Assembly (NCBI GenBank): GCA_905221605.1
Contig: CAJNDS010002735.1
Coordinates: forward strand, 186,001 to 250,000
DNA: 64,000 bases
Source of the DNA: Symbiodinium natans
Lineage: Eukaryota; Sar; Dinophyceae; Suessiales; Symbiodiniaceae
Reading direction: 5' to 3'
Below are positions 4,223-64,000 of this stretch, in pieces. Each line of letters begins with the position of its first letter. Position 1 is the stretch's first letter. A model generated the notes under the pieces. It did no database searches. It saw only the letters and a list, made by a program, of their open reading frames with translations, and was not told the DNA's origin. The position numbers were made by a program, and so were the translations under genes.

Positions 4223-4230
4223 CCCCCTCA
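4223..4230 (-). other. Polypurine tract of the copia element
   Basis: On the minus strand TGAGGGGG lies directly before the TGTGAAAG start of the 3' LTR, the position required for plus-strand DNA priming in LTR elements. Confidence 0.65.
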
Positions 4231-4250
4231 TGCCTGCAACAGTTGCGTCC

Positions 4251-8260: not shown

Positions 8261-8914
8261 CAACAAGATCAAGCACACCAAGCCAAGCACAAACACTCCC
8301 AAGCACACTGCAAGCCTTGCAAAACAACATGCTCAACATGCAACGTGTACGTGTTTGGGGTTTTGGGGCCTTCCTATGCAAGACAAACTGCTTGTAGCTA
8401 GGCACTCGGACCCAGTGGTCCCCACAGAAAATCCTAACACTGCAGCCCTTCCTGCGCGGCCTCACTCTAAAGACCTTCCGATCCTTTTCTCCAACGGAAC
8501 ACCTTTCAAACTCGACAAACAAAAAGTGGAACCCCCAAAACACTAGACCACCCAAGAGGTGGCAGAAGCCCAAGACGGCCACGATGGCCATGACATCCAG
8601 TCCTGGCCCAAGACCATTCCTGTATAGGCTGGCGGTGGTTCGGTTGGGGTTGAAGTTAAGGTTTGGGATTTGGTGCGTTTCAAAGGGGTTTCGGGCACAA
8701 GCAAGCTCAAGCTCAAGCAATCCAAGCGGCAAACCAAGCTCAAACAACTCATGCTTCACATGTGTTTCAAGAAAACGAAACCACGCACTCACACCTTTGT
8801 TTTCTTCTCGAAAGGAAATTCGGTGCGCCGAGTCGGCGTAGTCCAGGACTCCATCCCGAACGCAAAAGAAAGCTATGATACATTCCAAGCCGGGCCCACG
8901 GCTCCAAATCCCCT
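8261..8914 (-). other. CAAGC-rich spacer on the left of the nested ORF
   Basis: Plus strand is rich in CAAGC/AAGCTCAAGC words (8,270-8,330 and 8,695-8,760). Translation is open on the minus strand but hydrophobic and repetitive, unlike pol. A similar composition occurs at 10,740-10,900 and in the LTRs. It may be element non-coding DNA or an intron; I cannot decide. Confidence 0.4.
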
Positions 8915-10569
8915 TCATCCTTTCTTGATCGTCTCCTTTGCGGCAGCCACCACCGCATCGAAGCTGGGGACATTGGCCGAGCTGCTGGAAGATGGGGCCT
9001 CCGATTCGGGAACCGTTGGCATGGAGGGCCCCGGAGCGGGGCGTGGCATCGCCTTTACCGCCGGCGGTGGCGGCGGAAGAACGAACGAGCGCTCCGAGCC
9101 CGTCTGTCCAAGACCAAGAAGAAGACGGCCGATGGAATCCCCAGGCGGGGCTGTTGAAGCAGGAGAAGGTGGCTCCAGGGGCATATCCCCGTCGTCGTGG
9201 TGGCCCGGAGTTGCAGCCGAAGTTCCCGGAACCATTGGTGGAGCTGGAGGATCTCGACCACCCATCCCTGCTTGCTTCACCATCGGTGGTGGCGCCGTCT
9301 CTGGCGTAGGGAGGCAAAGGGCCTCTTGGACTGAGATATTGTCCTCCCGGCACTTCAAGCAAAATCTCAGCGCCTCTTCGGGGCCTTCGCCATGGAGGTC
9401 TTCGTCGGCCGAAACGGAGGTGGAGCTCGAATCGCTTGATGTAGACCCACCAGGACCAGCACGGGCCTTCGGCTTCAACCTCCGGCGCGAATCTCGCGCG
9501 GCCCTGCGGGCATTGCTGGCCTCCTTCGACCGCAATGCAGCATCTGTTCGAAGCCTCAAACTCGTAGTGAGCTCGCCCCACGCGACACGTTCGTCGCGAT
9601 ACCGCGTAAAGCGCGGTCCCTCGAAGAGACGCGGCTCGTGAAGGGCCAACAACGGGCGTTCCCCCGCCTTTGCATTGATAAAGGCGCGCAAGCAGATGAG
9701 GAGCCGCTGAAGATACCCCATTGCGCTTATGGAGCATTCGCGCTCTCGGCGGTCGTTGCGCCCCCCAGCGCCCTTGGTAGCGACGCCCAGCCTGTCCATG
9801 GCTGACAGGACGTCGTGGGGCCTCAGCCCCCATTCGAAGAGGCCTTTGCCTTGGAGAAGAAGATGGAGGCGCTCTCTGCAGCCAAGTCTTGATCCACAGT
9901 GGAGGTGGCCACCTCCCGAAATCTTTTGGGACGGCGACCTTCTTCTTGTACAGGTTCGGGAAGTACCTGTGGTGGATGTGGACCTTCCGGAAACCGCGGA
10001 AGCACCGAGTGCCACGGAGTCGGGGCTGCATATTCGCTGGGACGAACCAAAGTCGCAGACCCACCAAAGATCTGGCGAGTAATCGCCGGAGACCCCAGAT
10101 GCTGCGCCACATAGGCCTCGCCTATGGTCCCGGCCATGGCGAGGGAATCGTAAATGGCACTCGGGTCTGCTGGGGGCCCATAATAATGGGAAAGCTGGGG
10201 CATTGGTTCCCCAGGCCCGGGGTACAAATGGACCCCAAGCTCGGCAGCCTCGGCAATCCTCCTCCTCATATCGAAAAGCAAAGCATGATGCAAGGCCGTC
10301 AGGCGTTGTCCCGGAATGGATGGTGGCTGCGTGGTGTCCACCGGAGTAATCCTCGGCACATCGGAATCTCCAATATCCACGGGGTCCGCCGCAATGGGGC
10401 GCCAATGCCCCCAATTCTCGGAGTCGGTAGGCGAAGGCTCCTGGACCGTCGCCATTGGCTCCTGGACCGTTGCCTCCTCCAGCGACGGGCCCACCATTGG
10501 CGAAACACTCGCCTCTCCACCAACTGGGTCCTCTATCGCAGGCCCAGAGGTTTGGGAGCCACCCATCAT
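8915..10569 (-). pseudogene. Nested ORF between protease and integrase, unrecognised
   Basis: A minus-strand protein begins with a double Met at 10,569-10,564 (MMGGSQTSGPAIED), runs Pro/Glu-rich, then has a compact part (LHHALLFDMRRRIAEAAELG, LSHYYGPPADPSAIYDSLAM). It meets a TGA near 9,823, but the neighbouring frame continues directly (GLRPHDVLSAMDRLG, MGYLQRLLICLRAFINAKAG, RPLLALHEPRLFEGPRFTRY, a basic stretch, then a Ser/Pro-rich tail ending ETIKKG at 8,915). One frameshift at about 9,830 therefore splits what was probably a single protein of about 550 residues. It does not belong to the usual copia gene set and pushes protease and integrase about 3.2 kb apart. I do not recognise a family. 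Confidence 0.55.
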
Positions 10570-13437: not shown

Positions 13438-13930
13438 TGTTCGGCAAGTCTCTCGCAGAGTCAGCGCAGCTTCACTTTCGTGAATTCCATCTCAACTTTG
13501 TTAAACAAAGGAGGAACACATGCAAACGTCCGAATGCTTCTCAGGACTTCAGTGCTTCAGCAAAACAAGCATACAAGTGCACAGCCACTCTGCTCGAACC
13601 TCAGTACGACGACACGAGCGAAGCGAGAGTCGGCGGCCAATGTTTAAAGAGCAAACTCAGAGAACACGCACTCTTCAAGAATGCTCCTAAAGCATCTCGA
13701 GTGCTTCTGCTCATCATGCACACTCCAAGCATCTCCGTCAAGCTCAAAGCAAGAAACACTTTCAAGCCAAGCTCCAAACATGCTATGTCCATGCCTGTTT
13801 CTGCTGACACCAAACAAACGGTTCAAGCACAGCTCTCAACTCACGCAATGCAAACTCATGGTTCATGTCACATGTGCAAGACATCCTGTCAACTGTAAAG
13901 GCACTCACAAGGAAGTCAAACACTTTCACA
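13438..13930 (-). repeat. 5' LTR of the copia element
   Basis: 493 bp copy of 3725-4222 with 7 substitutions. Directly inside it on the minus strand is CCTGTGTTTTGGGAGTG, the position of the primer-binding site; it does not match the initiator-Met tRNA half used by many copia elements, so the primer is unknown. Confidence 0.9.
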
Positions 13931-35964: not shown

Positions 35965-38900
35965 ATGTTGCTGCGCCTATCAGCGATTGGTCTATGCCAG
36001 CTTGCGCTGGCAACTTTCCATCGGAGCCAGTCCTCGTCCAATCTGTCCACGTGCCCTCCGTGTGACATCGACGACTGGAATGATGAGAGCTTCAAGCAGT
36101 GCAACTTCTGGGGTGACCCTCACATCACCTCCAGCTATGGTGATCTGGATGCTTTCGACTTTCAGGGCATCGGTTTGTTCAAGTGGGCGGTGTCCAGTGG
36201 ATGCGGCTACAAGTTCCAGGTGAACGCCTTCACATGCAGGTACACGCCGCGGCTTTGGAGCAACAGCATCACACGCTATCTGGCCATTCAGATGGGTGAC
36301 GACATCATCTACATCAACAACACCAATGTAGGCGGCCTCCTCAGAGGGATGCGATGCCAGCTCTCGCTGAAAGACTGGCCTTTTCAGAGCCCCTTCACCA
36401 AATCCAGAGAGCCCCCTTGACATCCCTTGACATCCCTTGACATCCCTTGACATCCCTTGACATCCCCTGACCTCCTTCGAATTCCTCCTGAAGTCACTGA
36501 ATGTCACTGAACAGGTGGCAGCGGCCTGGACATGGTGGATGACCCGACCTTCAGTCGTGCAACTGCCGGTGTCAACATCCAGAGCCCGGACAAATGCTTC
36601 CGAATGAATGTGAACGTGAAACCGCTTGATGGAGGCCTTCGTGCCTCGGAAAGATGATTTTGCCAGCAGAGAGTGTACCTCCCCGTTTGCGGCTGCCGCA
36701 AAACAAGGCTGGTACCACAATGTGAAGCTCCGCATTTTCAAGGATGTCTTGGAAAAGGACGTCTTTGTTCTGGTAGAGCATGGTAGAGCATGTAGAGTGT
36801 AGAGCCTGCACCAAGACATGTGCACTAAGCGTCAATGGCTCTGATAGGATGGCATCTGCGGTTCATCCGATCTGCTCGGTCAGTTTCTTGGCGGAATCGC
36901 AAGCTTCACATTTGTAAGCGTGAAGCACAATTCAAGACAAACTGAAGGAGACTGAAGACAGTACAACCAAGGCTCGTGTATTCTGACGATTCCGACACGC
37001 TCTTCACGGACGAGCAGCTCACCGAGATGTGCACCACCTGCACGGATCCGAACGCGCCGCCTCCGTTGGGTTGTCCCGGGACTGGGCCTGGCACTAACAG
37101 CACCCCGTTTGCAATATGGCAGCTTGCACACAGCGCAGCCACATTTGGCAAATTTATGGCCACATTTGCGATCTTCAGGTCCAGGTTGCGAGTTCATGAG
37201 CCAGTCCAGCAACCTGAACAGTTTCGAGTGCACAGAGGACAAGCTCCCGAAAGATGGGAGCTCCGTCGAGGCGGGCAACCTGAGCACGTACCAAGGTTTG
37301 ACCAAGAACGGAGACCACTGTCTAGCCTACGTCAAGACAAAGGGAGGTGGCTCCAGCGCCAGCTGCGCGCAATACTGTGAGGATATTGGCTCGACATGCG
37401 TGGGTGTGTGGGATCAACTTTCTGGTACGACCTGCGCATTGGATCCAATCAATATCACCGTGAATCACGGTGCAACTTGCCACAACCGCGCTGGCCTTCG
37501 GGACATGCTCTGCATTTGTGACAAGCCTAGTCCTGACAATCCCTTTCCTGGCCCTTCCCCGGGACGTGTCTGTGGGAGTGCCGAGTCCTTCAACGAAGCC
37601 GTGGACCTCTGCAAGGTTTGCCTCCCAAATGCTGAGTTCACAGACGCGCCAGTCGCCGAACAAGACAAGCGCCTGAGAAGTTGTGTCATCGACATCTGTT
37701 CCCTCCCGGGTACAGCCACCCTCGACGACAAGGAAGCCATCGCCGAGAACTCCTGTGAGCAGGACCCCGATCTCCCGCCCGACGGGATGAAGGTCTGCTC
37801 CGCGGCGGGGCCTCTTGCCTACTCTGAGACTGTGTCAGCTGGTCTACGCATGTCACCATATCATTCGCAACGTGCACACACAACGTACATTCACGCAACA
37901 TCTTTTTGGGTACTGGAGCAGCTGGAGGTTCTGCGAAGCCATCTGCGTCGACAACCTCGTGTTCCCAACCATTGGCGTCGCCTCCCAAGAGACCAACACA
38001 ACAACGCCTCGCAGGAAGGACTTCTATGACAGTGCCTGCCATGTTAAGAAGTTTGGTGCTGCGCCTTTTTTTGGATGTTTGTGTCCACTCCTAGGTCAGT
38101 GCCTGCCACGGCCTCTGCAAGCCTATCTTCGAGTCCAAGGTGAAGGGCGGTCTCCGGGGATTCTGCGACTACAAGGACACCTGCTCTGGCTACGACTGCA
38201 GCTCCTGGGCGGAGGGAGAGGGAGGAAGGGCCTTCTTTGTTCTCGTGCTTCTCTGGGCTTTGGTTCGAAGTGGGCGATATCTATTATTGTCTACTAACCC
38301 GCCCAGGTGACTCGTCTTACTACTGCCCGCTGCTGTGCCAGAGCTTGGAGTGCGACCAGAATGTCCAGGACTGCGATGGGAGAGTTCTGGGGCCTGAAGC
38401 CGTCTTCACAAAATATCCTTGAGGGCTCGGGGGCAGGGATAGGCATGGCAGACTCCGAGGACGGATGTTCTGGGTGCGAACAACGGTGCGCGGATCAATT
38501 CGCAGATGTGGACGACATCCTGGAGGAGTACTGTGACGATTGTTACTCAGTGCCCACGAGTCCGAGCACTTGCGACAAATCCGGGTGCCTTGGCTGAACA
38601 TGGGAACAACTCGAAAGCGTCAATCAGGTAGAGACAGTGCTCTGGCGGGAATTGTAGAAGACTTGGAGAAGTTGCTGAGAAGCTGCAGCCATGACTCTAA
38701 TCTCTTATCTCCTCACCGTCTCAGATTTTGCGCAGAGTATTGCAAGAGCGACGAGAATGGCAACAACCCGCTCCACTTTGACCCCGCTGAGTGCATTGCC
38801 TTTTGTACCAGTGATGCCGGGTACAACAGCATTATCGGCATCGTGGAATCCAAGTTCTGCCCGCACTCGAACAGCATTAGCGCCGGACAGGCGAGAACAA

Positions 38901-40350
38901 TATGCAAGACTTCCCCCAGTCTCTGCAGGATTCCGTCAACAAGAAAATCTTGTTTCAATCCATGTGCCGGTGCAGTGAGGGGGGCTACCGGCTTGGGAGG
39001 TCTTTTCCAAGAGTATTGTGGCACCTGCAGAGGTAGTACTACCCCTGCTATTACCACCGTCCCTGCCACTACCACCACCGTCCCTGCCACGACCACCACC
39101 GTCCCTGCCACGACCACCACGACCACCACGACAAGCACCTCGACAAGTACCACAACAACCAGCACCACCACCAGCACCACAACCAGCACCACCACCAGCA
39201 CCACCACCAGCACCACCACCAGCACCACCACCACCAGCACCACCACCAGCACCACCACAACATCGACAACGACCACAACAAGCACAACGACGTCGACCAC
39301 CACCACAACAAGCACAACCACTACCTCTACCACCACGACCACCACAACAAGCACGACAACAAGCACGACAACAAGCACGACAACAAGCACGACAACAAGC
39401 ACGACAACAAGCACGACAACTACGACAACCACCACCACCACGACCACCACCACCCCCACCACCACCACCCCCACCACCACCCCTACCACGACCACCACTT
39501 CCACGACTTCCACAAGCACTGCGGAAGAGGTTCCGACCACAAGCACACTGGAGGATACCACGCCTTCCCCAACAACGTCCACTCCTGGTGCCAACATCTC
39601 CATTTGTGATGACAGAGGGTCCCTTGTGCTGCAGAAAAGGTCTCACACTAGATTCACTAGATTCACTAGATTCACTAGATTCACTAGATTCACTAGATTC
39701 ACTAGATTCACTAGATGTCTTGATTGTAGCCCTGCAGAAGAGTTGTGCAAGCAAGAATAGATAGAGCAGCGTCGCAGGTTTGACAGTCACTGAGGATAAG
39801 AACATGCAGCTGACTCATGTAGCACATTCTGCAGGTGTGTTGACATGAGCTGCACATCTTTGAGAGGTTTTGTGACGCAATTTGTGACATTGGCTTCGCT
39901 GGTGCCCAGTGCCGGGCAGACTGTGGTGCGGAAGCGCGGAAGATCACTCGCACGTTCTGCAGATGTGGCGTGTGCTCCCACAGCATGCTCCAGGAAACCG
40001 AGGAAGTGGGCCTTCTGCACTTCCGTGCCCCTACGCCTGGGGCACCCGAGCTGGGCGGCGAGCTCAGCAGCTGCCGCTGCCGCGCCTCGGACTTGGGAAG
40101 GCCTCTTTTCAGACTCTTCGTCACTCCCACACACTTGTCCCTTCCGTTCCGCTCTCCACCGTTCTTCTCTCCCGCTTGTTGCTTAGGAAACCCCTCGTAC
40201 TACTGCAAGAAGCTCTGTGATGATGGCTTCAAGCGCCATGGTGACCGCGAGCTTGTTTGCGTGGAGAGCTGTCTGGTGAAGTTTCCGGAAGTGCTGCAAG
40301 TCCTGGAGACCTACGAAGACACTTGCCCAGCATGCCAGGCCCGTGCCTAA
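35965..40350 (+). CDS. Secreted VWD, cysteine-rich and Thr-rich mucin-like protein
   Basis: ATG at 35,965 opens a signal peptide (MLLRLSAIGLCQLALA), then CNFWGDPHITSSYGDLDAFD and FQGIGLFKW, the GDPH and FdG-type signature of a von Willebrand D domain. VWD continues in separate blocks: GGSGLDMVDDPTFSRATAGV (36,517), DGICGSSDLLGQFLGG (36,848-36,913) and SDDSDTLFTDEQLTEMC (about 36,980). Then come Cys-rich blocks at about 37,195-37,840, 37,915-38,027 (WRFCEAICVDN), 38,095-38,220 (SACHGLCKPIF, CDYKDTCSGYDC), 38,307-38,400 (SSYYCPLLCQSLEC), 38,450-38,590 and 38,725-39,020. A Thr-rich PTS block follows (about 39,040-39,520) with ACC, ACA and ACG codons mixed. Final Cys-rich blocks at about 39,865 (FCDAICDIGFAG) and 40,187 (PSYYCKKLCDD) lead to TAA at 40,350. 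Probably an extracellular or cell-surface glycoprotein. Confidence 0.75.
36421..36470 (+). repeat. CATCCCTTGA tandem repeat
   Basis: Five copies of a 10-bp unit, in what is read as the first intron of the VWD/mucin-like gene. Confidence 0.95.
39040..39520 (+). repeat. Thr-codon repeat encoding the mucin-like block
   Basis: ACC/ACA/ACG triplets with interspersed AGC, TCG and CCC give TTTTTSTSTTTT-type sequence rich in O-glycosylation sites. It contains a sub-repeat ACAACAAGCACG at 39,340-39,420. The Val- and Cys/Gly-rich frames on the other strand are shadows of this repeat. Confidence 0.85.
39648..39717 (+). repeat. CTAGATTCA tandem repeat
   Basis: Nearly eight copies of a 9-bp unit just after the Thr-rich exon, probably in the following intron. 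Confidence 0.95.
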
Positions 40351-40611
40351 TGTTCGGAAGCCCCGTGCCCAGAAGATGGACACAGACATCACGGCACGGT
40401 CGTAGATTTGTTTTGCGAGGCCAGGCGAGGTGATGATGACAAGGGGGACCGGGCTTGCGTGCTGCGAGGGTGGCATGTCTTCGCTCTGCCATGTTGTGTC
40501 AACATGGATCAGACATGTAAGGGCCTCCCAAGCTCTGGTCTCTTAGCACGTCGTAGCACAGGCCAGAGAAGAATAAATTATAGCATGCTCTCTTTATGCT
40601 GTCCTGCGCAG

Positions 40612-43600
40612 GACGATGACAGGAGGAACGATGACGACAAGAAGAGGGACAGTGGTGGGGCCTTCATGTCGGTGGTACGGCGCATTCACATTCTGCCGTT
40701 TCATGATGGCACTTTCCTGGTGGATGCACATGTGGAGTCACTGTTTTTGAAGACTGCAATCCTATGCTGTGAAAGTACGATCGCATCAATGCTTGTAGAT
40801 GGCAGAAGGAACAAGGATTGAAGTCTGGTTGCTTATGCTGTGCCAGTACAATCGCCAACAATGCTCGTAGGATGATGACAAAAGGCCGGATGACGACAGG
40901 AAGAAGGACATGTGGAGCCGTTGCTTTTTTGAAGTCTGCAATCGTATGCTATGGAAGTACGATCGCACCAATGCTTGTAGATGGCTGAAGGAACAAGGAC
41001 TGTAGTGTGGTTGCTTATGCTCTGGAAGTAGAATCGCAACAATCCTCGTAGGATGATGACAGAAGGCCGGATGACGACAGGAAGAAGGACATGTGGAGTC
41101 TTTGTTTTTGAAGTGTGCAAGCCTATGCTGTGGAAGTACGATCGCAACAGTGCTTGTAGATGGCAGAAGGACTGAAGTCTGGTTGCTGTGGAAGTACAAT
41201 CGCAACAATGCTTGCAGGATGACGACAAAAGGCCAGATGACGACAGGAAGAAGGACATGTGGAGTCTCTGTTTTTGGAGTCTGCATCATATGCTGTGGAA
41301 GTAGAATCGCATCAATGCTTGTAGATGGCAGAAGGAACAACAGCTGAAGTCTGGGGGCTTCTGCTGTGGAAGTACAATCGCAACAGTGCTTGTAGGATGA
41401 TGACAAAAGGCCGGATGACGACAGGAAGAAGGACATGTGGAGTCTCTGTTCTTGAAGTCTGCAATCGTATGCTATGGAAGTACAATCGCAACGCACCGAC
41501 GTGCTGTAATCGCGCTCGTTGGGAAAAGACGCAAGTCTATTATCGTTTCATTCTTTTTGCGGAATGCGTTTCACGTGGCCTGCGTGGTGCAAAAGCAACT
41601 TGGGCATTTGTACAGATCGTGAATGTTCTGGTGGAAGCACGACTTTTTTGGGTTAGATTGTTGTCTATTTTTCGGAAAAAAACGTGCGTTTCGCGTGGGA
41701 GGTCCTTTGCACGGGATTTTCGTTTTTTTTTTTTTTCTTTCTTTTTTTTTTTTGTTGGGTCAGGGCTGTGGGCGGCGGCGAAGCCGGCAAAAAGCACATC
41801 TACAAGGTAAAAAAGTGACCATTCGCATGCACTGGTCACAATCATCGTGCGGACATGGATGCTCTGGCCATTGGCACGCACTGGTCTCACAGACCTAATC
41901 ATCGCGCAGACATGGTGCTCTGGCCACTCGCACGCACTGGTCACGCAGACGTATAATCGTCATGCGGACACGAATGCTCTTGCCATTGGCACGCACTGGT
42001 CACAAAGACGTAATCATCGTGCGGACATGGATGCTCTGGCCACTCGCACGCACTGGTCACGTAGACGTATAATCGTCATGCGGACATGGATGCTCTTGCC
42101 CTTGGCACGCACTGGTCACAAAGACGTAATCATCGTGCGGACATGGATGCTCTGGCCACTCGCACGCACTGGTCACGCAGACGTATAATCGTCATGCGGA
42201 CATGAATGCTGTTGCCATTGGCACGCACTGGTCACAAAGACGAAATCATCGTGCGGACATGGATGCTCTGCCCGTTCGCACGCACTGGTCACACGGACGT
42301 AATTGTTTGTCTGCCAGAACGACGAAAAAGAAGCGAAAATGCCGCAAATCACGTGGTTTCAGCATGTCACGCGCACGAAACACTGTAAATAGCGATGGAA
42401 TCGGCATCTGCAAAACGCGCGTTTACAGCACGCCGGAGCCAGTCGCAACAATGCTTGTAGATGGCAGAAGGAACACGGTCTGAAGTCTGGGTGCTTATGT
42501 TGTGGAAGTACAATTGCAACAATGCTTGTAGGATGACGACAAAAGGCCGGATGACGACAGGAAGAAGGACATGTAGAGCCTTTTTTGTTGTTTTTTTGAA
42601 GTCTGCAAGCCTAGGCTGTGGACGTACAATCGCACCAATGTTTGTAGATGGCAGAAGGAACAGGGACTGAAGTCTGGGTGCTTATGCTGTGGAAGTGCAA
42701 TCGCAACAATGCTTGTAGGATGACGACAAAAGGCCGGGTGACGACAGGAAGAAGGACATGTGGAGCCTTTGGCTTTGAAGTCTGCAATCCTATGCTGTGG
42801 CAGTACAATCGTACAGTGCTTGTAGATGGCAGAAGGAACAACGGCTGAAGTCTGGGTGCTTCTGCTTTGGAAGTACAATTGCAACAATGCTTGTAGGATG
42901 ACGACAAAAAGCCGGGTGACGACAGGAAGAAGGACATGTGGAGCCTTTGAAGTCTGCAAGCCTATGCTGTGCAAGTACAATCGCACCAATGCTTGTAGAT
43001 GGCAGAAGGAGCAAGGACTGAAGTCTGAGTGCTTATGCTGCGCAAGTGCAATTGCAACAATGCTTGTAGGATGACGACAAACGGCCGGATGACGACAGGA
43101 AGAAGGACATGTGGAGCCGTTGCTTTTTTGAAGTCTGCAAGCCTATGCTGTGGAAGTACAATCGCACCAATGCTTGTAGATGGCAGAAGGAACAAGGACT
43201 GAAGTCTGGGTGCTTATGCTGTGGAAGTGCAATTGCAACAATGCTTGTAGGATGACGACAAAAGGCCGGGTGACGACAGGAAGAAGGACATGCGGAGCCT
43301 TTTGTTTTGAAGTCTGCAAGCCTAAATTGTGGAAGTACAATCGCACCAATGCGTGTAGATGGCAGAAGGAACAACGGCTGAAGTCTGGGTGCTTCTGCTT
43401 TGGAAATACCATTGCAACAATGCTTGTAGGATGATGACAAAAAGCCGGATGATGACAGGAAGAAGGACATGTGGAGCCTTTGTTTTTGAAGTCTGGAAGC
43501 CTATGCTGTGGAAGTACAATCGCACCAATGCTTGTAGATGGCAGAGGGAACAAGGGCTGAAGTCTGGGTGCTTATGCTGCGCAAGTGCAATTGCAACAAT

Positions 43601-46600
43601 GCTTGTAGGATGACGACAAAAAGCCGGATGACGACAGGAAGAAGGACATGCGGAGCCTTTGTTTTAGAAGTTTGCAAGCCTATGCTGTGGAAGTACGAAT
43701 CGTGCCAATGCTTGTAGATGGCAGAAGGAACAAGGACTGAAGTTTGGGTGCTTATGCTGTGGAAGTACAATTGCAACAATGCTTGTAGGATGACGACAAA
43801 AGGCCGGGTGACGACAGGAAGAAGGACATGCGGAGCCTTTGTTTTTTGAAGTTTGCAAGCCTATGCTGTGGAAGTACGAATCGTGCCAATGCTTGTAGAT
43901 GGCAGAAGGAGCAAGGACTGAAGTGTGGGTGCTTCTGCTTTGGAAGTACAATTGCAACAATGCTTGTAGGATGATGACAAAAAGCCGGATGACGACAGGA
44001 AGAAGGACATGTGGAGCCTTTGTTTTTGAAGTCTGCAAGCCTATGCTTTGGAAGTACAATCGCACCAATGCTTGTAGATGGCAGAAGGAGCAAGGACTGA
44101 AGTCTGGGTGCTTATGCTGCGCAAGTGCAATTGCAACAATGCTTGTAGGATGACGACAAAAGGCCGGGTGACGACAGGAAGAAGGACATGTGGAGCCTTA
44201 TTTTGAAGTCTGCAAGCCTATGCTGTGGACGTACAATCGTACCAATGCGTGTAGATGGCAGAAGGAACAAGGACTGAAGTCTGAGTGCTTATGCTGTGGA
44301 AGTGCAATTGCAACAATGCTTGTAGGATGACGACAAAAAGCCGGATGACGACAGGAAGAAGGACATGTGGAGCCTTTGTTTTTTTGAAGTGTGCAAGCTT
44401 AGAATGTGGAAGTACGAATCGTACCAATGCTTGTAGATGGCAGAAGGAACAAGGACTGAAGTCTGGGTGCTTATGCTGTGGAAGTACAATTGCAACAATG
44501 CTTGTAGGATGACGACAAAAGGCCGGGTGACGACAGGAAGAAGGACATGTGGAGCCGTTGCTTTTTTGAAGTCTGCAAGCTTAAAATGTGGAAGTGCAAT
44601 CGCACCAATGCTGGTAGATAGCAGAAGGAAAATGGACTGAAGTCTGGGTGCTCATGCTGTGGAAGTACAATGGCAACAATGCTTGTAGGATGACGACAAA
44701 AAGCCGGATGACGACAGGAAGAAGGACATGTGGAGCCTTTTCTTTTGAAGTCTGCAAGCTTAAACTGTGGAAGTGCAATCGCACCAATGCTTGTAGATGG
44801 CAGCAGGAACAAGGACTGAAGTCTGGGTGCTTATGCTGTGGAAGTACAATTGCAACAATGCTTGTAGGATGACGACAAAAGGCCGGGTGACGACAGGAAG
44901 AAGGACATGCGGAGCCTTTGTTTTTTGAAGTTTGCAAGCCTATGCTGTGGAAGTACGAATCGTGCCAATGCTTGTAGATGGCAGAAGGAACAAGGACTGA
45001 AGTCTGGGTGCTTATGCTGTGGAAGTGCAATTGCAACAATGCTTGTAGGATGATGACAAAAAGCCGGATGACGACAGGAAAAAGGACTTGTGGAGCCTTT
45101 TTTTGAAGTCTGCAAGCTTAAAATGTGGAAGTGGAATCGCACTAAAGCTTGTAGATGGCAGAAGGAAAATGGACTGAAGTCTGGGTGCTTATGCTGTGGA
45201 AGTACAATGACAACAATGCTTGTAGGATGACGACAAAAAGCCGGATGACGACAGGAAGAAGGACATGTGGAGCCTTTTCTTTTGAAGTCTGCAAGCTTAA
45301 GCTGTGGAAGTGCAATCGCACCAATGCTTGTAGATGGCAGAAGGAACAAGGACTGAAGTCTGGGTGCTTATGCTGTGGAAGTACAATTGCAACAATGCTT
45401 GTAGGATGACGACAAAAGGCCGGGTGACGACAGGAAGAAGGACATGTGGAGCCGTTGCTTTTTTGAAGTCTGCAAGCTTAAGCTGTGGAAGTGCAATCGC
45501 ACAATGCTTGTAGATGGCAGAAGGAACAAGGACTGAAGTCTGGGTGCTTATGCTGTGGAAGTACAATGGCAACAATGCTTGTAGGATGACGACAAAAAGC
45601 CGGATGACGACAGGAAGAAGGACATGTGGAGCCTTTGTTTTTTTTTTGAAGTCTGCAAGCTTAAATGTGGAAGTGCAATCGCACCAATGCTTGTAGATGG
45701 CAGAAGGAACAAGGACTGAAGTCTGAGTGCTTATGCTGTGGAAGTACAATTGCAACAATGCTTGTAGGATGACGACAAAAAGCCGGATGACGACAGGAAG
45801 AAGGACATGTGGAGCCTTTGCATTTCTGAAGTCTGCAAGCTTAAAATGTGGAAGTGCAATCGCACTAATGCTTGTAGATGGCAGAAGGAAAATGGACTGA
45901 AGTCTGGGTGCTTATGCTGTGGAAGTACAATGGCAACAATGCTTGTAGGATGACGACAAAAAGCCGGATGACGACAGGAAGAAGGACATGTGGAGCCTTT
46001 GTTTTTTTTTTTAAGTCTGCAAGCTTGAAATGTGGAAGTGCAATCGCACCAATGCTTGTAGATGGCAGAAGGAACAAGGACTGAAGTCTGAGTGCTTATG
46101 CTGTGGAAGTACAATTGCAACAATGCTTGTAGGATGACGACAAAAAGCCGGATGACGACAGGAAGAAGGACATGTGGAGCCTTTGCATTTCTGAAGTCTG
46201 CAAGCTTAAAATGTGGAAGTGCAATCGCACTAATGCTTGTAGATGGCAGAAGGAAAATGGACTGAAGTCTGGGTGCTTATGCTGTGGAAGTACAATGGCA
46301 ACAATGCTGGTAGGATGACGACAAAAAGCCGGATGACGACAGGAAGAAGGACATGTGGAGCCTTTGCTTTTTTTGAAGTCTGCAAGCTTAAGCTGTGGAA
46401 GTGCAATCGCACCAATGCTTGTAGATGGCAGAAGGAACAAGGACTGAAGTCTGGGTGCTTATGCTGTGGAAGTGCAATTGCAACAATGCTTGTAGGATGA
46501 CGACAAAAGGCCGGGTGACGACAGGAAGAAGGACATGCAGAGTTCGGTTTTCAAGTCTATGATTCTATGCTGTGGCAGCACGATCGCAACAATGCTTGCT

Positions 46601-49600
46601 AACAAGCTTGGGTCTCGCTGTCCCGCTCAGTCTGTTTCTTCAAAGTTGTGAGTGTCTTAAAGTCTGTGATTCTGTTTGGTGCAAGCTCTGCACAACCATG
46701 CCTTCAGGACAATGGTTACAACTGGCCGGATGACGGCACGAAGAAGGACATTGTTGATTTTCAGGCTTGTTGTGCTTCTCTTGGAATGTGTTCTGTCTGG
46801 GTGCACTCTGCTCACAGCACTGCTTGTAGGACGACGATGGCAAAGCGCCGGACGACGGCACAAAGAAGGACATGCAGAGTCTTTCGTTGTCGGTTGTTGA
46901 TTCGTAGAATCATTGTTTTTTGCTGCCTGTGGTTTTGTGCAGGACAAGCAAAGTCTTGAGATGTTGGTTATTGATGTCTGGACTTTGTGTCTCTTTTTGC
47001 TTGTCACAACAATACCTTCAGGACAACGGCTACAACTGGCCGGATGACGGCACGAAGAAGGACGTTCAGAGCTTTCTAGCAGCCTTCGGTTGATTTTGAA
47101 GTTTGTTGTGTTTCTCTTAACGTTTCTGTTTCCGCCTGATGCGCATTGTTCACAATCAATGCCTTCGGACGACGGTTGCAACTGGGCGGATGACGGTAAT
47201 TGCGAAGAAAGACATGCAGCAGAATCGCTGGTTTGCTGTGCTGCGGTTGCAGTCCGAAATCTTGTCTGGTGTGCATTGTTCACAACACTTTTTTTCAGGA
47301 CAATGGATACAACAGGCCGGACGACGGCACGAAGAAGGACACGTAGAGTCTCTAGTTGTTAGTGTTCGATGTGTTTTTGATTTGTGCAAATTCTACTGAA
47401 AGTTCTGGGTGTGTTGGGTGCAGTTGGTGCTGCACATTTAATCAGGACGACACTCACAAAAGGACAAAGGACAGCGACAAGAAAGTCATGTAGAGTCTTT
47501 TTCGGAAGTCTGCGATCCTATGCGGCGGAAGTCCGCTCGCAACAATGCCTGTAGTACGAATGATGGTAGTAGGCGGATCAGTGTCAGGCTGTGTCAGGGC
47601 GTTCCTGTCTAGGAAGTTTTGGGGGCGGCTTGTGTGCAGCCACCTCCGAATCTTGCCCCCTTCAGGGATGCTGCATCCTAGAACCACACCCCGCCTCCCT
47701 GTCGTCCAAGCCTGACGTGCACAAGCTTATCAAATCAGGACGACATCTACAAAAGGACAAAGGACGACAACAAGAAGGACGTGTAGAGTGTCATTGCCGC
47801 CTTCGAGATTTCTGGCAAGTCGCTATGTTTAGCTTTCCGGCTGTTGCGGCTTCCTATGTCATATGTGCACCAGACTTTGCCACAACCTGTAGACTGTGTC
47901 GGGTGGTGTTCCTTGTTCATCTCCGTGTTTATGAGGACGACGATGGATCGCGCAGACGCAAGGACCGGGCCTCGGGCACAGTCGCCACTTCACTCCATTT
48001 GCGAGTTTGCGCCGAAACATGTGGTAGTAACGTGGTAGTTTGTCGGTGAGGACGATGTTGATGACTCTGGACGTCGACGCAAGGACAAGGGGTGGAAACA
48101 TGCAGGAAGAATGGAGGCCACTTCACTCATGCAGGATTGCCTGTTGAGTGGTTCCCAATGCGGGATGACGATGCTTTTGGTGCTTTCAGCCTCGGACGCG
48201 GACTCTCATCTGCCATCTGCCAGCATCAGTCGTGTGCCATCCACACATACCCAACAGTCCTTGAAACTTGCGAAGTCCCTTTTGGCCCTGGACTCAAGTG
48301 GACCTGATCGTAAATGCCATTAAGGGCCTCTTGCCTGCTCGCCACCGCGAACCATCTCCGGGCCCGATGCCAATGCCTTGATCCACTGGACCCCTCCAAA
48401 CTTCTCAGAGGTGGCAGACGCCTTTTGGGAAGGCTTGTGCGTTCGCTGGGCGGCATCGTGTCAGTTGGCCGCAACGCGGCAAACTCAATGCCGCTTTCGC
48501 TTAAGGCCGCGAGCGGCGCCAAGTCCTTGACAGCTCGTCGCAGCTCGACGCTTAAGTTAGCAGTTCCTACCACCGCGCCATTTTTCACGTCATCTCAAAA
48601 GGAGTCAGGCTGCTTATGCACTGGATAAGCTACACAGACATTCACATGCGTGTCTGCATGCTATTCTTCTCAACCGCTGTAGCATGCGGAAAGCGTAAGC
48701 ATCATACAAAGATCACCAAGTCGGCGCCTTCAGCAGCTTCTGGTGGCACCTCACCGCAATGCGTTGCTTGTTCTCAGTCCCTGCCCGTACCGTGGGTACT
48801 GTTGAAACTGTTGTAGCTGGTGTTTTTGTGCCATGCTTGCCATGCAATCCGGCCAATATCCTTTATCAGAACCATTCTTGCCACGGCAGCCGGCGCACCA
48901 ATGAGTCACAAAAAGAGCCTGATTCGGCTCAGCATTACACCACACTTTCACAGCACTTGCGCCTCCTTCTTGCGCTGCGCAATGACATAGCGAAAAGGCA
49001 CCCTGCCCAGCATCGGGTGCCCTTTAAAACTGTGGCTCGTTCCGCGCCCGCTCGAGTTCGGGCACTGTGAGCCTCGCAGCGCACCTGGGTCCTCCTGTCA
49101 GACGCTTTGGCTTCAGCAAGTTTTCACAGCCAGATCACGACCGCTGCGCTTTCCACGCCTCTGCGGAAAGCGGCATGCGCTCGCCATGCAGCAGCGCAGA
49201 GCCCTCGGAGACTTGGTGGCAGATGGGGCGCACATGCCGGGTACACCTGGCTGCAACATCAAAACCATCTAGGCCGACAATCGCGCGTTCTTTTCATTTT
49301 GTAGCATGCTTAGCGCTGCATTTTCAATTGTTTCCATGATCTTCCATTGCAATGACACCTATCTGTAGGACTTGTCATTCCTTACAGATATTGCTGTTGT
49401 GTTCGCTTTTCAGACTCTGCCACACTTGTGTGTAGACTGGGCATTGCTAGTCCTTCATGCCCCCTCATGCCTGCTGAAAAGGACGATGATGGCTCGCGCC
49501 GACGCAAGGACTCCAGCTCGTACAAAGTTGTTACATGATTGCTTTCGCAGTGTCTGGGAATCACCTGGTTGTTACTGATTGTCTGTTTGTGAGGACGACG

Positions 49601-52404
49601 GAGATGACGGTAGTCGTCGTCGGCGCAAGGACTGGGGTTGAACAAATACATCGCGATGAGTGGAGGCCCAATGCAAGACAGTACTGCAATGTTGAACCTG
49701 CATCCTTTCAGCTGTCGCGCGCCACGTGCTCAGTCCAATTTTATCGCTAACGCGGCTAAGAAGTGCCCCTTTCTCGTGGGGGGGGGGGGCCGGGGGAGGC
49801 TGGTGGGGCATGGGGGGAGGGCGTGGGGGGGGGCGGGGGGTCGTGGTGGGGGGGCGCAGCCGGGATTCTCGCATCCACCCCCTGTACCTGGGAGACTCGA
49901 TACAGGTCGACTACGGGGGGTATCCATTCGGGCCATAAAAAACTCGGCCCGCGGCCCCACCCACACTGCGCTGTCTGCTTCCTGCCGGTTCGGGATCGGC
50001 ATTGATGTTTGAGGGCTTCTGTGCTTCGGTTTGAGAATGAAGGGGATTGCTTAGGGTTGTTCAGACTTCTAGGGTTGAGGGGTTGCTTGGGGCTCCTGGG
50101 CAGTACAAAAACAGAGAGCTGTGATAATGCAGAGGACGGTTCACATTTTCTTTTGTCAGACAGAGGAATGGAGGATTCCCTATTAAAGATGTAATGGTTT
50201 CCTACCAACAATGCTTCTGAGACGCCAATGATAAACAAATGGTCGGATGACGGCACAATGAAGGACATGTAGAGTCTCGTATGTTTAGTCTGCGAGCCTA
50301 CTCTGTGGACCTCAGTGCTAGTGTACATTTTTCGCAACAATGCTGAAACTCATCACTGCGTCGCATTTTCTGGGAGTCGCCTGTTGTCCATTTGTGAGGA
50401 CGACGGAGATGACGGTAGTCGTCGACGAAAGGACTGGGGCTGGGAACATGCCAGACATGCTGGGGAACGTCTGATGCTGCATCAGTGGACGTTCAGTACA
50501 AGGTGGCTTCGGTACAGGTATCTCGCACCCGCATTCCCTCCGTTGTTGTTCGCTTGTCAAGCTCAGCCACAGCGGCGTGCCGGCTGCAATGAGCGTTCGT
50601 CCTTCATGTCTCCTCATGCCTGTTAAGAAGGACGATGATGGATCGCGCCGACGCAAGGACTGGAGCTCGTGCAAATTTGTTACATGACTGCCTTCACATT
50701 GTCTGGGAATCACCTGGTCTGTTCATAAGGATGACGGAGATGACGGTAGTCGTCGACGAAAGGACTGGGGCTGGGAACATGCCAGACATGCTGGGGAATG
50801 TCTGATGTGCATCAGTGGACGTTCAGTACAAGGTGGCTTCGGTACAGGTATCTCGCACCCGCATTCCCTCCGTTGTTGTTCGCTTGTCAAGCTCAGCCAC
50901 AGCGGCGTGCCGGCTGCAATGAGCGTTCGTCCTTCATGTCTCCTCATGCCTGTTGAGAAGGACGATGATGGATCGCGCCGACGCAAGGACTGGAGCTCGT
51001 GCAAATTTGTTACATGACTTCCTTCGCATTGTCTGGGAATCACCTGGCGCTGGTCTGTTCATGAGGATGACGGAGATGACGGTAGTCGTCGACGAAAGGA
51101 CTGGGGCTGGGAACATGCCAGACATGCTGGGGAATGTCTGATGTGCATCAGTGGACGTTCAGTACAAGGTGGCTTCGGTACAGGTATCTCGCACCCGCAT
51201 TCCCTCCGTTGTTGTTCGCTTGTCAAGCTCAGCCACAGCGGCGTGCCGGCTGCAATGAGCGTTCGTCCTTCATGTCTCCTCATGCCTGTTGAGAAGGACG
51301 ATGATGGATCGCGCCGACGCAAGGACTGGAGCTCGTGCAAATTTGTTACATGACTTCCTTCGCATTGTCTGGGAATCACCTGGCGCTGGTCTGTTCATGA
51401 GGATGACGGAGATGACGGTAGTCGTCGACGAAAGGACTGGGGCTGGGAACATGCCAGACATGCTGAGGAATGTCTGATGTGCATCAGTGGACGTTCAGTA
51501 CAAGGTGGCTTCGGTACAGGTATCTCGCACCCGCATTCCCTCCGTTGTTGTTGGCTTGTCAAGCTCAGCTCGGCCACAGCGGCGTGCCGGCTGCAATGGG
51601 TGTCCGTCCTTCATGCCCTTTCATGTTTGTTGAGAAGGACGATGATGGATCGCGCCGACGCAAGGACTGGAGCTCGTGCAAATTTGTTACATGACTTCCT
51701 TCGCATTGTCTGGGAATCACCTGGCACTGGTCTGTTCATGAGGATGATGGAGATGATGGTAGTCGTCGACGAAAGGACTGGGGCTGGGAACATGCCAGAC
51801 ATGCTGGGGAATGTCTGATGCTACATCAGTGGACGTTCAGTACAAGGTGGCTTCGGTACAGGTATCTCGCACCCGCATTCCCTCCGTTGTTGTTCGCTTG
51901 TCAAACTCGGCCACAGCGGCGTGCCGGCTGCAATGGGTGTTCGTCCTTCATGCCCCCTCATGCCTGTTGAGAAGGACGATGATGGATCGCGCCGACGCAA
52001 GGACTGGAGCTCGTGCATATTTGTTGCATGTCTGCCTTCGCATTGTCTGGAAATCACCTGGTCTGTTCATGAGGATGACGGAGATGACGGTAGCCGTCGA
52101 CGAAAGGACTGGGGCTGCGAACATGCCAGACATGCTGGGGAACGGCTGATGCTGCATCAGTGGACGTTCAGTAAGGAAGGGTCGGTTTAGATATTTGAAG
52201 CATACTATCTTGTCTATCTGTTGCCTACATTCCCTCAGCTTTGTGGGATCAGGGACACGAGGACTGGCTCGTGGATATTTTAAGTGCCTGTATCCCTGTT
52301 TTCCAGGGGTCGCGGAGGGAAGATCTTTCGTCGGTCGAGAAACCCATGTCTTTGCGTCATTGATGAGTGTGGAGGACGATGATTCGTCACGACGCCGGCG
52401 CAAG
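40612..52404 (+). CDS. Putative giant gene of about 50 symmetric mini-exons with Asp/Arg-Lys charge blocks
   Basis: Over 12 kb, on the plus strand only, short blocks recur that begin directly after AG with GAC or GAT and end at AAG or AGG followed by GAC. Examples: 40,612-40,647 (DDDRRNDDDKKR), 42,532-42,567 (DDDKRPDDDRKK), 46,708-46,746 (DNGYNWPDDGTKK), 50,631-50,657 (DDDGSRRRK), 50,730-50,762 (DDGDDGSRRRK), 52,375-52,404 (DDDSSRRRRK). If spliced as GA-AG introns, the blocks are 27, 30, 33, 36 or 39 nt, all multiples of three, so they join in phase 0. Ser is coded by AGT, TCG, TCA or TCT and Arg by at least five codons in diverged copies while the peptide pattern stays, which points to selection on protein. 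Spacers are 75-310 bp. The block at 47,446-47,484 is followed by GT instead of GA. First and last exons of the gene, and its expression, are unknown; a satellite with no protein product is the main alternative. Confidence 0.5.
41500..42430 (+). other. Interruption of the 180-bp array
   Basis: Unrelated sequence with a T-rich stretch (41,728-41,755), a 57-bp tandem repeat and a terminal Lys-rich frame (42,310-42,400). The array resumes at AACAATGCTTGTAG near 42,440. Confidence 0.7.
41825..42305 (+). repeat. 57-bp tandem repeat
   Basis: About nine copies of a unit containing GCACGCACTGGTCAC and GCGGACATGGATGCTCTGGC, with two alternating variants (AAAGACGTAATCATC and GCAGACGTATAATCGTC). Confidence 0.9.
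46690..47790 (+). repeat. Divergent mini-exon blocks between the two arrays
   Basis: Seven blocks at about 46,708, 46,832, 47,022, 47,168, 47,299, 47,446 and 47,738, reading DNGYNWPDDGTKK, DDDGKAPDDGTKK, DDTHKRTKDSDKK or DDIYKRTKDDNKK. Most follow a pyrimidine-rich stretch ending TTCAG, TGTAG or ATCAG. Spacers have diverged much more than the blocks. The copy at 47,168 has lost its exact ends. Confidence 0.7.
47937..48085 (+). repeat. Two solitary charge-block copies
   Basis: 47,937 (DDDGSRRRK, with CGC AGA CGC for the Arg run) and 48,053 (DDVDDSGRRRK), each after a GAG that supplies the acceptor and followed by GAC. They lie in otherwise unique sequence. Confidence 0.6.
48226..49340 (-). 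other. Unique insert within the array, possible minus-strand remnant
   Basis: Minus-strand frames at 48,588-48,226 (KNGAVVGTANLSVELRRAVK, DLAPLAALSESG) and 48,951-48,751 (NQALFVTHWCAGCRGKNGSD) have protein-like composition and opposite polarity to the host gene, which suggests a retroelement or transposon fragment. No domain is recognised and the plus strand is also partly open. Confidence 0.3.
49484..49632 (+). repeat. Two charge-block copies before the 336-bp array
   Basis: 49,475-49,501 area reads DDDGSRRRK and about 49,593 reads DDGDDGSRRRRK with Arg codons CGT CGT CGG CGC. They are the outlying, diverged members of the 336-bp repeat. Confidence 0.6.
49780..49860 (+). repeat. G-rich tract
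   Basis: Runs of 5-11 G separated by one to three bases, with quadruplex potential, between the divergent mini-exon copies and the 336-bp array. Confidence 0.85.
50395..52160 (+). repeat. 336-bp tandem repeat with two mini-exon types per unit
   Basis: Five to six copies with a period of 336 bp in the centre (50,723, 51,059, 51,395). Each carries a DDGDDGSRRRK block (about 50,399, 50,730, 51,066, 51,402, 51,741, 52,075) and a DDDGSRRRK block (50,631, about 50,959, 51,295, 51,637, 51,976). Central copies are almost identical, so duplication is recent or homogenised. Confidence 0.9.
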
Positions 52405-61876: not shown

Positions 61877-64000
61877 ATGGATCCAGACGTTGAAGTCTTG
61901 TTGAAGAAGATTGAAGAGTTGAAGAGGGAGAAGCGGGAAGAGGAGGAGACCAGGGAAAGTAGAATGACACCGAAACTTCTGACACATGCGAGAACTTTGT
62001 GCCACAAGTTCATCACACATGACTTCTTGCTTGTGATAGGAGAAACGGAAAAGGGCCGAAAAGAGAGTGGAGCAGTCGTTTCAGTTGAAATGCAGCCACG
62101 AGGACTGACTTGAGATGATGAGCGTCCATCAGCAAGACGTGATTCATAGATTAGATAGTGGGGGTCCAAGCCTTGAAGGAGTCTAGTGAGCGAGCCAAGC
62201 AGCTCAAGTCCTTGGACGTGTGTTTCGTGCTGGATTGTACGAACTCGATGCAGCCCTTTATCGAATCGGTCAAGCAGAAGATCGCCGAAATCAACGTGCA
62301 GATTGAGATGCTTGGCTGATGTGAATGGTAGGGGGGTGCTGCCCTAGAGGGCTGTATGCTGACCCGATGGGTTGTGGCACATCAGCGGACGACAAGATTG
62401 CAGAATCATTCTTGCAGAATCAACTGAGGAAAAGGTTGGGAAGCGGAGCCAATGTGAGGTATGCCATGGTTTGCTATCGAGATTTCGATTGTGCAGAGCA
62501 TCCCGTGATCCTGCCGTTTGGCGACGTGCGTGCCTGCCAGCATTTCCTGGAAGGGGTCCGGGCAACCGGTGGTGAGGATTGGCGCTTTGACTAGACAGAC
62601 CGTTCGTGCAAGTTGCTGTGACGTTGTGGCTACAGGTAGGTTGACAGCATGTGCGACAGTGCAAATCTGGGGAGTGCCGAGGTGCGAGGATGTTCTTGCA
62701 GGGCTGGAGGCAGCCGTAAACCTCGATTGGCGAGGTCATGTGCGACTGCTATTTCTCCTGGCGCAGACGCCTAACCACGGTCCGCGTTTTCATGATAAGG
62801 CCCGGGGAGCAGGACACCAGGAAGGTCTTGTCCGAATCTTCAGTTGGGATGATCACTTTGATGTGGACACCGGCAAAGCAGACAGAGTCCTCCTCACTCT
62901 TGTCCAGAAGGATATCCACTTCCATTGCCTCGAGATTTCTGGCTCAACTTCGAAAATGTTTGAAGCCTTCCAGGAAGTCTACAACAACAAGGATGAGGGG
63001 CGCGTCATGAAGGTGCACACAATGACTTCGGACGCAGAATCGCTGCTGTCAACAATTGTAAAGGCATCTTGGAGCTCAGTGCAGGAGACGTTCACTAGGA
63101 CATCGGCATCGTGGTCCGTGGTCACTGGTCAAGAGCAACATCTGCCAGAGTTCAATGTCAGTAAAGTATCCCTTGATCCCAACATCGATTGGGAGAACAT
63201 GACGGGGTGGCAGAAGTTCCAGGCCAGACTTGAGTCGGTAGAGGTACAAGATGAGCTTTGCACCAAGTTCCGGACCCACGAGACCAGAACCACGGTCCAC
63301 ATTGCACCAAAGCCATTCAGCCACGGCGCCATGCGCGCTGCGTGGGCACTCTATGACGAGAGCATTAATGCAAAGCTCGTCGCGAAAAGATACATGAGAC
63401 AGGATTCACGGTACAATGCCATAGAAGTCCTAGAGGGTGACCTCCGGTCACAAGCTTTGGCTATGAGCCTGGCGGAGAAGTTCAACCGCCGCCGACCTAA
63501 CGAACCACCGCTGCATTTTGTGCAGCTGCAGCTGATGCGCATTGATGTTATGGGCAAGGAGAAGCTCATGACGGTGGAGCCCTTCATTCCTGGAGAGTAC
63601 CGTAAAGAAACCAACAATGCAAGCTTCGTTCGGGAGGGCTCTGACATAGCACAAGCCTTTAGCCATTTTTCCCATGATGTTACAGGCGGGGCTTGCATGG
63701 TGGTGGACATCCAAGGGGTCCGCGAATCTCTGACGGATCCACAAATCCACAGCAAGCACTCATGTTTCGGTCGCGGCAATCTCGGCACCAAAGGCTTCGA
63801 TGCCTTCTTCATGGTGCATCAGTGCAACGAGGTCTGCAGGCACTTGAAGCTCAAGCCAAACCCGATGCAGCTCAGCAGCCTCGCCCACGACTTGATTGGG
63901 AGCTTGGAGGCCTGTCCGTGGAAACTTGGCGCGATTTCAGGTAGACCAATCACGAGACAGAGACATCGTAAAGCATGCTTAACTGTGCGTCGGGGTGGAC
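61877..64000 (+). CDS. VWA-alpha-kinase protein (VwkA-like), right end outside window
   Basis: A likely start at 61,877 gives MDPDVEVLLKKIEELKREKR, a charged coiled coil. After an intron, SLDVCFVLDCTNSMQPFIES (about 62,201-62,309) is a VWA strand with a MIDAS-type DCTNS. Intron 62,310-62,434 fits GC-AG, then LGSGANVRYAMVCYRDFDC leads to RATGGE at 62,576. Intron 62,577-62,688 fits GA-AG, then a long exon from 62,689 starts DVLAGLEAAVNLDWRG. The alpha-kinase domain follows: PFSHGAMRAAW, LVAKRYM (nucleotide-binding Lys), VEPFIPGEYRKETNN, AQAFSHFSHD, MVVDIQGVRE, TDPQIHS and GRGNLGTKGF (Gly-rich loop). All are hallmark alpha-kinase motifs and look intact. A GT after TTTCAG at about 63,940 may end the exon. 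The same VWA plus alpha-kinase combination is known from Dictyostelium VwkA, a Ser/Thr kinase. Confidence 0.88.

Follow-up and report, generated by a model that had tools for sequence, protein, structure and literature searches.

Between positions 40612 and 52404 of its + strand, the 64,000-nucleotide stretch of DNA analysed here (the window; positions 186001-250000 of contig C2423 in a 759-Mb genome assembly of 2543 contigs) carries 50 intact short charge blocks, 576 codons in total, in which aspartates are followed by arginines or lysines. The sequence makes it probable that this series is the locus of a tandem-repeat protein family in a dinoflagellate-like genome, in which each repeat of 9-13 residues, acidic at its start and basic at its end, would form its own phase-0 mini-exon. 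The spacers start with GA(C) and end with AG, and predicted splicing would remove them and join successive phase-0 blocks. Since every such exon is symmetric, the reading frame would survive any gain, loss or skipping of exons, and unequal crossing-over may have multiplied exon and intron together to produce the two homogenised arrays within the series, array 1 with a period of 181 bp (23 blocks) and array 2 with a period of 336 bp (11 blocks).

The blocks obey a tight boundary and length rule. Their lengths are 27, 30, 33, 36 or 39 nt, divisible by three in 50 of 50; AG precedes all 50, the first base after this AG is G in every case, and GAC follows 49 blocks and GTC one, giving 49 GA and one GT at the 3' boundaries of the blocks. 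An earlier sequence-only reading had described such a series, and its coordinates, single strand and general rule are borne out, as is its remark that the serine codons (here AGT, AGC, TCG, TCA, TCT) and the arginine codons vary; its claim that every clear copy lies between AG and GAC with a length divisible by three is correct for the left edges and the lengths and fails at the single GTC right edge and at two further copies that break the rule. The set was collected with a strict rule (AG/GAY ... AG/GAC, the slash marking a block edge, 27-39 nt in steps of three, without a stop and with lysine as the final residue), which returned 48 blocks at 40871-52404 (28 of 36 nt, seven of 27, seven of 33, five of 39 and one of 30). 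A frame-blind gapped BLAST search of the + strand, queried with 17 of the blocks and cut off at E<1e-6, added four copies: two intact and in frame (40612 and 47446), both of which were also among the queries, and two broken (47167 and 50226). A looser regular expression allowing any length found 48 matches on the + strand of the window, all 48 divisible by three, none on its - strand, and none on either strand of five 10-kb stretches of the same contig beside the window. First-order Markov shuffles of the window (n=100) gave a mean of 0.01 motifs and a maximum of one, against the 48 observed, which rules out a chance origin of the motif set.

Two types of block can be distinguished, which would belong to the same gene: 34 KK-type blocks, up to position 47777 (for example DDDKRPDDDRKK, DNGYNWPDDGTKK and DDIYKRTKDDNKK), and 16 RRRK-type blocks from 47936 onward (DDDGSRRRK, DDGDDGSRRRK, DDDSSRRRRK). 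They are not independent of one another, as 27 of the 50 form a set of similar 36-nt copies, most of them (23) in array 1, and 11 lie in the 336-bp array. The 49 spacers follow no divisible-by-three rule (remainder classes 15, 20 and 14), 39 of them contain an in-frame stop, and the repeats in the window stand 72-1398 bases apart and are hence not contiguous in one frame.

Comparisons among diverged copies make coding selection on the RRRK-type blocks well supported, and on the KK-type blocks weakly so. In 35 KK-type and 21 RRRK-type pairs, compared ungapped, identity is 1.00 at the left-edge AG/GA and 0.64-0.88 in the nine block bases next to an edge, falling outside the blocks to 0.43-0.52 in the nearest ten bases and 0.23-0.39 beyond 10-12 nt; in the RRRK type the positions of low identity are mostly third codon positions. 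Across 22 aligned units of array 1, 6 of 36 columns vary in the block as against 57 of 150 in the spacer (Fisher P=0.018), and all gaps fall in the spacer, mostly within a T-rich run. By both measures block and spacer rates are unequal, where equality had been named beforehand as grounds for giving up the idea of a spliced protein. Substitutions were counted on minimum spanning trees, so that changes are not fully independent, with rows 49594 and 52375 shortened by one codon (chosen for the fewest differences). Of the 61 changes in the block frame, 32 are synonymous and 29 nonsynonymous, where 44.7+-3.3 nonsynonymous changes are expected and none of 3000 simulations gave so few, and neither of the other two frames has a nonsynonymous deficit (48.5 against 43.5 and 46 against 43.1 expected). 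The deficit appears in the RRRK type alone (6.5 against 16.3+-2.0; 0/3000) and in the KK type alone (22.5 against 28.6+-2.7; 37/3000), persists when the two shortened rows are removed (27 against 39.6; 2/3000), and in the pair 47936/49482 takes the form of three synonymous changes and nothing else (P 0.0035). Because GAC before G creates a CpG, the test was rerun without CpG transitions, and the RRRK type retained its deficit (6.5 against 11.5 expected; 8/3000). Control windows placed in the spacers lack such a deficit in all three frames (frame 0: 24 changes, 17 nonsynonymous against 18.5+-2.0).

Spacer-free relatives elsewhere in the genome provide a second line of evidence. A looser RRRK pattern, AGGAYGAYN{6,24}MGNMGNAARGAC, occurs at 65+30 genome places, 16 of them in the window, compared with 10+14 for a reversed control; a first broad pattern, GACGACGACNNNCGNCGN, was uninformative (198+190 places against 420+179 in its control). 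Many of the RRRK places stand head to tail at steps of 27-39 bases, and space for spacers is therefore absent at those loci. On contig C156, 17 places are separated by steps of which 15 of 16 equal 36 bases, and the repeat reads DDDVDGGSRRRK; C1926 has five places, and C1867 has three clusters of 11, 15 and 14 places with some longer steps. In five clusters elsewhere all steps are divisible by three (16/16, 10/10, 14/14, 13/13 and 4/4; 57/57), compared with 8 of 15 in the window. An RRRK-type protein query produced 13 matches, none with an internal stop, in open frames of 636 codons on C156 (seven matches), 588 on C1843 (two), 268 on C1926 (two), 294 on C1867 (one) and 98 on C2495 (one). The C156 matches arise largely by construction, because residues 1-36 of the query are the C156 repeat itself; those on the other four contigs cover this C156-derived section as well as some of the window-derived one, and the query misses two of the three C1867 clusters as well as the window locus itself, presumably because the exons there are too short. 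The arrays on C156 (24.6-25.4 kb), C1843 (508.3-508.7 kb), C1867 (797.1-797.8, 1227.6-1228.5 and 1254.6-1255.4 kb) and C1926 (284.2-284.6 kb) resemble the window blocks in running from D-rich to RRRK in the same register, beginning GAY and ending AAR, and differ from them in lying head to tail in one frame, with steps of 36, 30 nt and others, and in that KK-type repeats were not found among them. The 16 RRRK-type window blocks have the features of this family (several Asp, Gly/Ser, three or four Arg and then Lys, in one frame), and since the repeat recurs without spacers in long open frames, the RRRK block is therefore a protein repeat.

Narrower searches of the genome led back to the window contig. 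The DDDGSRRRK pattern (up to two mismatches) was found at seven places, the KK-type end pattern (up to one mismatch) at 31, and one array-1 unit and one array-2 unit gave 28 and 8 matches, all on C2423, which rules out a dispersed element. Joined blocks matched no Pfam family (21 of the 50 blocks) and no PDB sequence (14 of the 50) up to E 1, so that a known domain identity is likewise ruled out. The earlier statement that no such family had been described agrees with these database searches for the part of the blocks they covered, and has to be amended by the at least five other places in the same genome that carry RRRK repeats.

The spacers, which we infer to be GA...AG introns, have predicted boundaries that fit dinoflagellate intron criteria, namely AG/G at the 3' end and GT, GC or GA at the 5' end. 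These boundaries, taken with the size of the genome and a remark in the sequence-only reading, suggest a dinoflagellate close to Symbiodinium. The predominant donors are GC, GT and GA in S. microadriaticum and GT, GC and GA in S. minutum (PMC5177918), and according to a review the share of donors that are GC or GA is 25-74% in Symbiodiniaceae (PMC11453091). In the gene just upstream of the series, the modules GDSSYYC (~38308) and GNPSYYC (~40188) both start right after AG/G, and GNPSYYC stays in frame only with a GA donor, all of this judged by eye. The Cpn60 family of the same genome gave no comparison splice sites: three of its four matches, on C1992, share an open-frame length of 682 codons, and the family therefore looked intronless. 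Literature searches returned no paper that combined dinoflagellate introns with GA-AG splice donors, dinoflagellate tandem repeats with mini-exons, or polyampholyte repeat proteins with exons and introns, and, judged by title, none on the present subject for disordered tandem-repeat proteins of Symbiodiniaceae.

A number of observations weigh against the mini-exon interpretation. The strict rule itself demands AG/GA edges and an open frame for 48 of the 50 blocks, which lowers the weight that their regularity can bear. Three array-2 spacers can be read through without a stop, and no start or last exon was recognised for the block gene. All inferred donors except one are GA, whereas three Symbiodinium introns described in PMC4201569 have gy donors, with acceptors of the form sag/GY; on their left, the 16 RRRK-type blocks have GAG (nine) or AAG (seven) rather than CAG or TAG, unusual acceptors of which GAG falls within the sag form. 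Many changes between GAC and GAT are CpG transitions, and without them the overall nonsynonymous deficit shrinks to 26 against 32.9+-2.6 (31/3000); with the shortened rows removed as well it is 24 against 29.1+-2.4 (103/3000), and the KK type alone gives no signal (19.5 against 21.3+-2.0, the observed value being reached or undercut in 592 of 3000 simulations). There is also no deficit in the pairs 46830/47299 (7.5 against 7.5 expected) and 47446/47739 (5 against 4.7). A KK-type protein query had no match at E<=0.001, its own locus included, where the exons are too short to match, so that this emptiness says little. The proposal of selection on a spliced protein in the sequence-only reading is thus partly supported: with the splicing itself a prediction, protein-level selection on a real peptide repeat holds up best for the RRRK type, by in-frame synonymous bias, sharp edges and spacer-free relatives, and is weak for the KK type, where the bias disappears with the CpG transitions.

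Among the other explanations, one concerns how the spacers arose and can be compatible with the mini-exons. An intron may have entered the AAG/GAC junction of an intronless repeat gene like that on C156 or C1926, after which exon and intron spread together, an origin that we entertain as a tentative possibility. Spacer-free relatives are present in the genome, and their head-to-tail junctions read AAR/GAY (from overlapping pattern matches), a possible AG/G splice context. Introners of S. microadriaticum that take a splice site from their insertion site have been described (PMC9860276), and the resemblance goes further: introners are introns in repeated copies, occur in dinoflagellates, and in some cases have GA or GC donors and direct repeats. 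Introners, however, occur as dispersed copies, whereas the two searched array units match the window locus only and travel with the exon, so that an introner family was not found. The opposite direction is also possible, the spacer-free loci being copies of spliced RNA.

That the blocks are a relic, former exons of this repeat family in a now decaying pseudogene that persists only through array homogenisation, with an inherited selection signal, seems unlikely. Signs of decay are present in the two broken copies, in the CpG-dependence of the KK-type signal and in a second block-like piece of 17 nt in the array-1 units (GTAG/ATGGCAGAAGGAACAAG/GAC), of which 23 copies stand behind AG/A. This piece could not serve as an in-frame exon, because it lacks the acceptor G and its length breaks the frame, and the 23 copies are what dead exons would look like. 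Set against this, none of the 50 intact blocks has a stop or frameshift even though as many as 26% of block sites differ between the copies compared, and while the strict rule demanded an open frame for 48 of them, frame-blind BLAST added just two broken copies at its cut-off. Both of these lack the left AG/G and are out of frame, and no copy with AG/G is frame-broken (0/50); such a coincidence of lost AG/G with lost frame is expected if the remaining copies are still in use, an argument from small numbers because the copies share descent.

It is also quite unlikely that the mini-exons form the C-terminal tail of the Thr-rich gene upstream (~36.0-40.35 kb) rather than a separate gene. That gene (~36000-40350, +) is multi-exon. 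Its N-terminal part bears GDPH, which we take to resemble a von Willebrand type D motif, and the gene also has Cys-rich modules and a long Thr tract. Its last frame ends in TAA at 40348-40350, nine bases after a CAG/GC that shares phase 0 with the blocks (by eye), and the first block follows 261 bases past this TAA. Agreement in phase is a one-in-three chance, however, and the upstream last exon is single-copy (a genome search matched only itself) and has no Pfam match, as was found for five open frames of the gene.

A more radical proposal, and in our judgement a decidedly improbable one, is that of a splicing ladder, in which each repeat could be kept, skipped or passed stepwise by recursive splicing, always in frame, to give a length series of charge-balanced polymers, with conversion of repeats into introns in the spacer-free relatives. 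Exons and predicted introns share the same end marks, a GA start and an AG end, and nearly all junctions read AG/GA; with GA donors and AG/G acceptors, such a junction could act as either splice site. The GA...AG repeats of the spacer-free relatives would then themselves resemble introns, and might be spliced out or turned into introns. If true, this would be a direct route of intron birth from protein repeats.

A non-coding minisatellite whose units spell charged peptides by accident is very improbable: homogenised tandem arrays are indeed present, yet the synonymous bias is specific to one frame and absent from the spacer control windows, the relatives without spacers sit in long open frames, and the spacers here follow no frame rule. 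That array 1 codes instead for another open frame, MAEG...RMTT..., overlapping the blocks can be dismissed as far as sequence can tell, since this frame, although opened by an ATG (once ATA) behind AG in 23 array-1 units and running for 42-85 codons in 19, carries no mark of selection (72 of its 94 changes are nonsynonymous, against 70.6+-4.1 expected; 670/1000) and stops after nine codons in four of the 23 copies.

Under the mini-exon interpretation, the joined blocks amount to 576 residues, among them 237 Asp, 128 Lys and 98 Arg, with a net charge per residue of -0.02 and a charged fraction of 0.80. Chains of this charge composition, polyampholytes, are expected to be disordered. The product would be a near-neutral, highly charged and presumably disordered polyampholyte. 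It might serve as spacer, spring or hydrated scaffold, and this is the weakest step of the proposal. As predicted exons, the blocks have the properties of a symmetric repeat-exon array, with many tandem exons, one phase and one repeat in each. The PEVK segment of vertebrate titin is a comparable case, with a long series of short exons (113 annotated in human) encoding a repetitive segment, exon number changing by duplication, and a segment called a flexible polyampholyte by a reference cited in PMC6469411. It is rich in Pro, Glu, Val and Lys, unlike the present exons of 27-39 nt encoding Asp then Arg/Lys, with GA...AG spacers and spacer-free relatives, and no homology to titin was seen, the joined blocks lacking Pfam or PDB matches up to E 1. 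The leucine-rich repeat exon arrays of Tetrahymena likewise belong to a protist and comprise up to about 50 tandem repeat exons with one dominant phase, shaped by unequal recombination (PMC6564038); those exons are exactly 90 bp, phase 2, leucine-rich and spread over thousands of genes, whereas the window has charge blocks of 27-39 nt in phase 0 at one locus. The zwitterionic tandem-repeat AGLs of arbuscular mycorrhizal fungi are also disordered proteins with acidic and basic repeats, but are Gly/Pro-rich and secreted, with a single intron in two Rhizophagus species (PMC8786786).

Symmetric repeat-exon arrays are thus already known, and what would be unusual here is that the same kind of repeat is also contiguous in the same genome. 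If real, the locus would show a single genome encoding one protein repeat in two natural gene designs, either as a contiguous run or with each repeat in its own mini-exon, so that comparing loci could test how introns originate in repeat genes. It would also be a strong test case for whether very short exons with GA donors are spliced, and would add a new polyampholyte, near-neutral overall and built of oppositely charged blocks. According to PMC6469411, exons that are short and repetitive commonly go unnoticed. Exons of 27-39 nt with GA donors may well escape gene finders, and more such genes may be hidden.

Along the + strand, the predicted series opens with DDDRRNDDDKKR at 40612..40647 (left edge CAG, right edge AGG/GAC; from BLAST and sequence), followed by four 36-nt mini-exons, DDD[KR]RPDDDRKK, that are diverged array-1 units (40871-40906, 41052-41087, 41218-41253 and 41396-41431; strict rule and TRF). 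Array 1 as a whole, including the 17-nt pieces (ATGGCAGAAGGAACAAG or a variant of it) that follow AG/A 23 times in its spacers, spans 42443..46537, and its 23 homogenised 36-nt mini-exons, DDDK[KR]P[DG]DDRKK, occupy 42532..46531 (strict rule and repeat analysis). The strict rule then gives 39-nt mini-exons at 46708..46746 (DNGYNWPDDGTKK), 46830..46868 (DDDGKAPDDGTKK), 47022..47060 (DNGYNWPDDGTKK again), 47299..47337 (DNGYNRPDDGTKK) and 47739..47777 (DDIYKRTKDDNKK); another of 39 nt, DDTHKRTKDSDKK at 47446..47484, came from BLAST and has the right edge AAA/GTC, with GT replacing GA. Between them lies the dead copy at 47167..47215, its left AG/G lost and its frame broken within (BLAST E 4.6e-7; frame by eye). 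The RRRK type begins with a 27-nt DDDGSRRRK (47936..47962) and a 33-nt DDVDDSGRRRK (48051..48083), followed by a diverged single unit of array 2, DDDGSRRRK of 27 nt (49482..49508), and the 36-nt DDGDDGSRRRRK (49594..49629), one codon longer than its array-2 relatives, all from the strict rule. A second dead copy, of the 39-nt kind, lies at 50226..50268, where the left AG is followed by A rather than G and the left-end frame meets a stop (BLAST E 4.6e-7; frame by eye). Array 2 (50399..52106; strict rule and repeat analysis) alternates 33-nt DDGDDGSRRRK (starts 50399, 50730, 51066, 51402, 51743 and 52074) with 27-nt DDDGSRRRK (starts 50631, 50961, 51297, 51638 and 51975), 11 mini-exons in 336-bp units, and the last mini-exon, DDDSSRRRRK of 30 nt, lies at 52375..52404 (strict rule).

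Other features lie within or close to the series. A 156-codon open frame at 40351-40818 (+) starts right after the TAA of the upstream gene and crosses the first block; it ends in DGRRNKD, the in-frame reading of one of the 17-nt dead-exon pieces. A 57/116-bp tandem repeat of about eight copies, without blocks, occupies 41840-42303 (+), between the blocks ending at 41431 and starting at 42532. Elsewhere in the genome, two of the RRRK arrays on C1867 (1227682-1228439 and 1254686-1255371) lie 27 kb apart with near-identical spacing series (30s, then 126 or 87, 96, 57, 39, 54 or 57, 96), and are probably a duplication.

Farther out in the window, a single open frame of 1956 codons at 4254-10121 (-) matches the Pfam reverse transcriptase family RVT_2 (E 1.5e-26) and presumably belongs to a Copia-like element. 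Short pieces, identical or similar, recur in the stretches 3792-4338 and 13505-13918 (+), which lie about 9.7 kb from each other on either side of this frame and, as seen in snippets rather than an alignment, are placed as terminal repeats would be. At the far end, an open frame of 497 codons at 62509-63999 (+), cut by the window end, contains an alpha-kinase domain (PF02816, E 4.8e-45).

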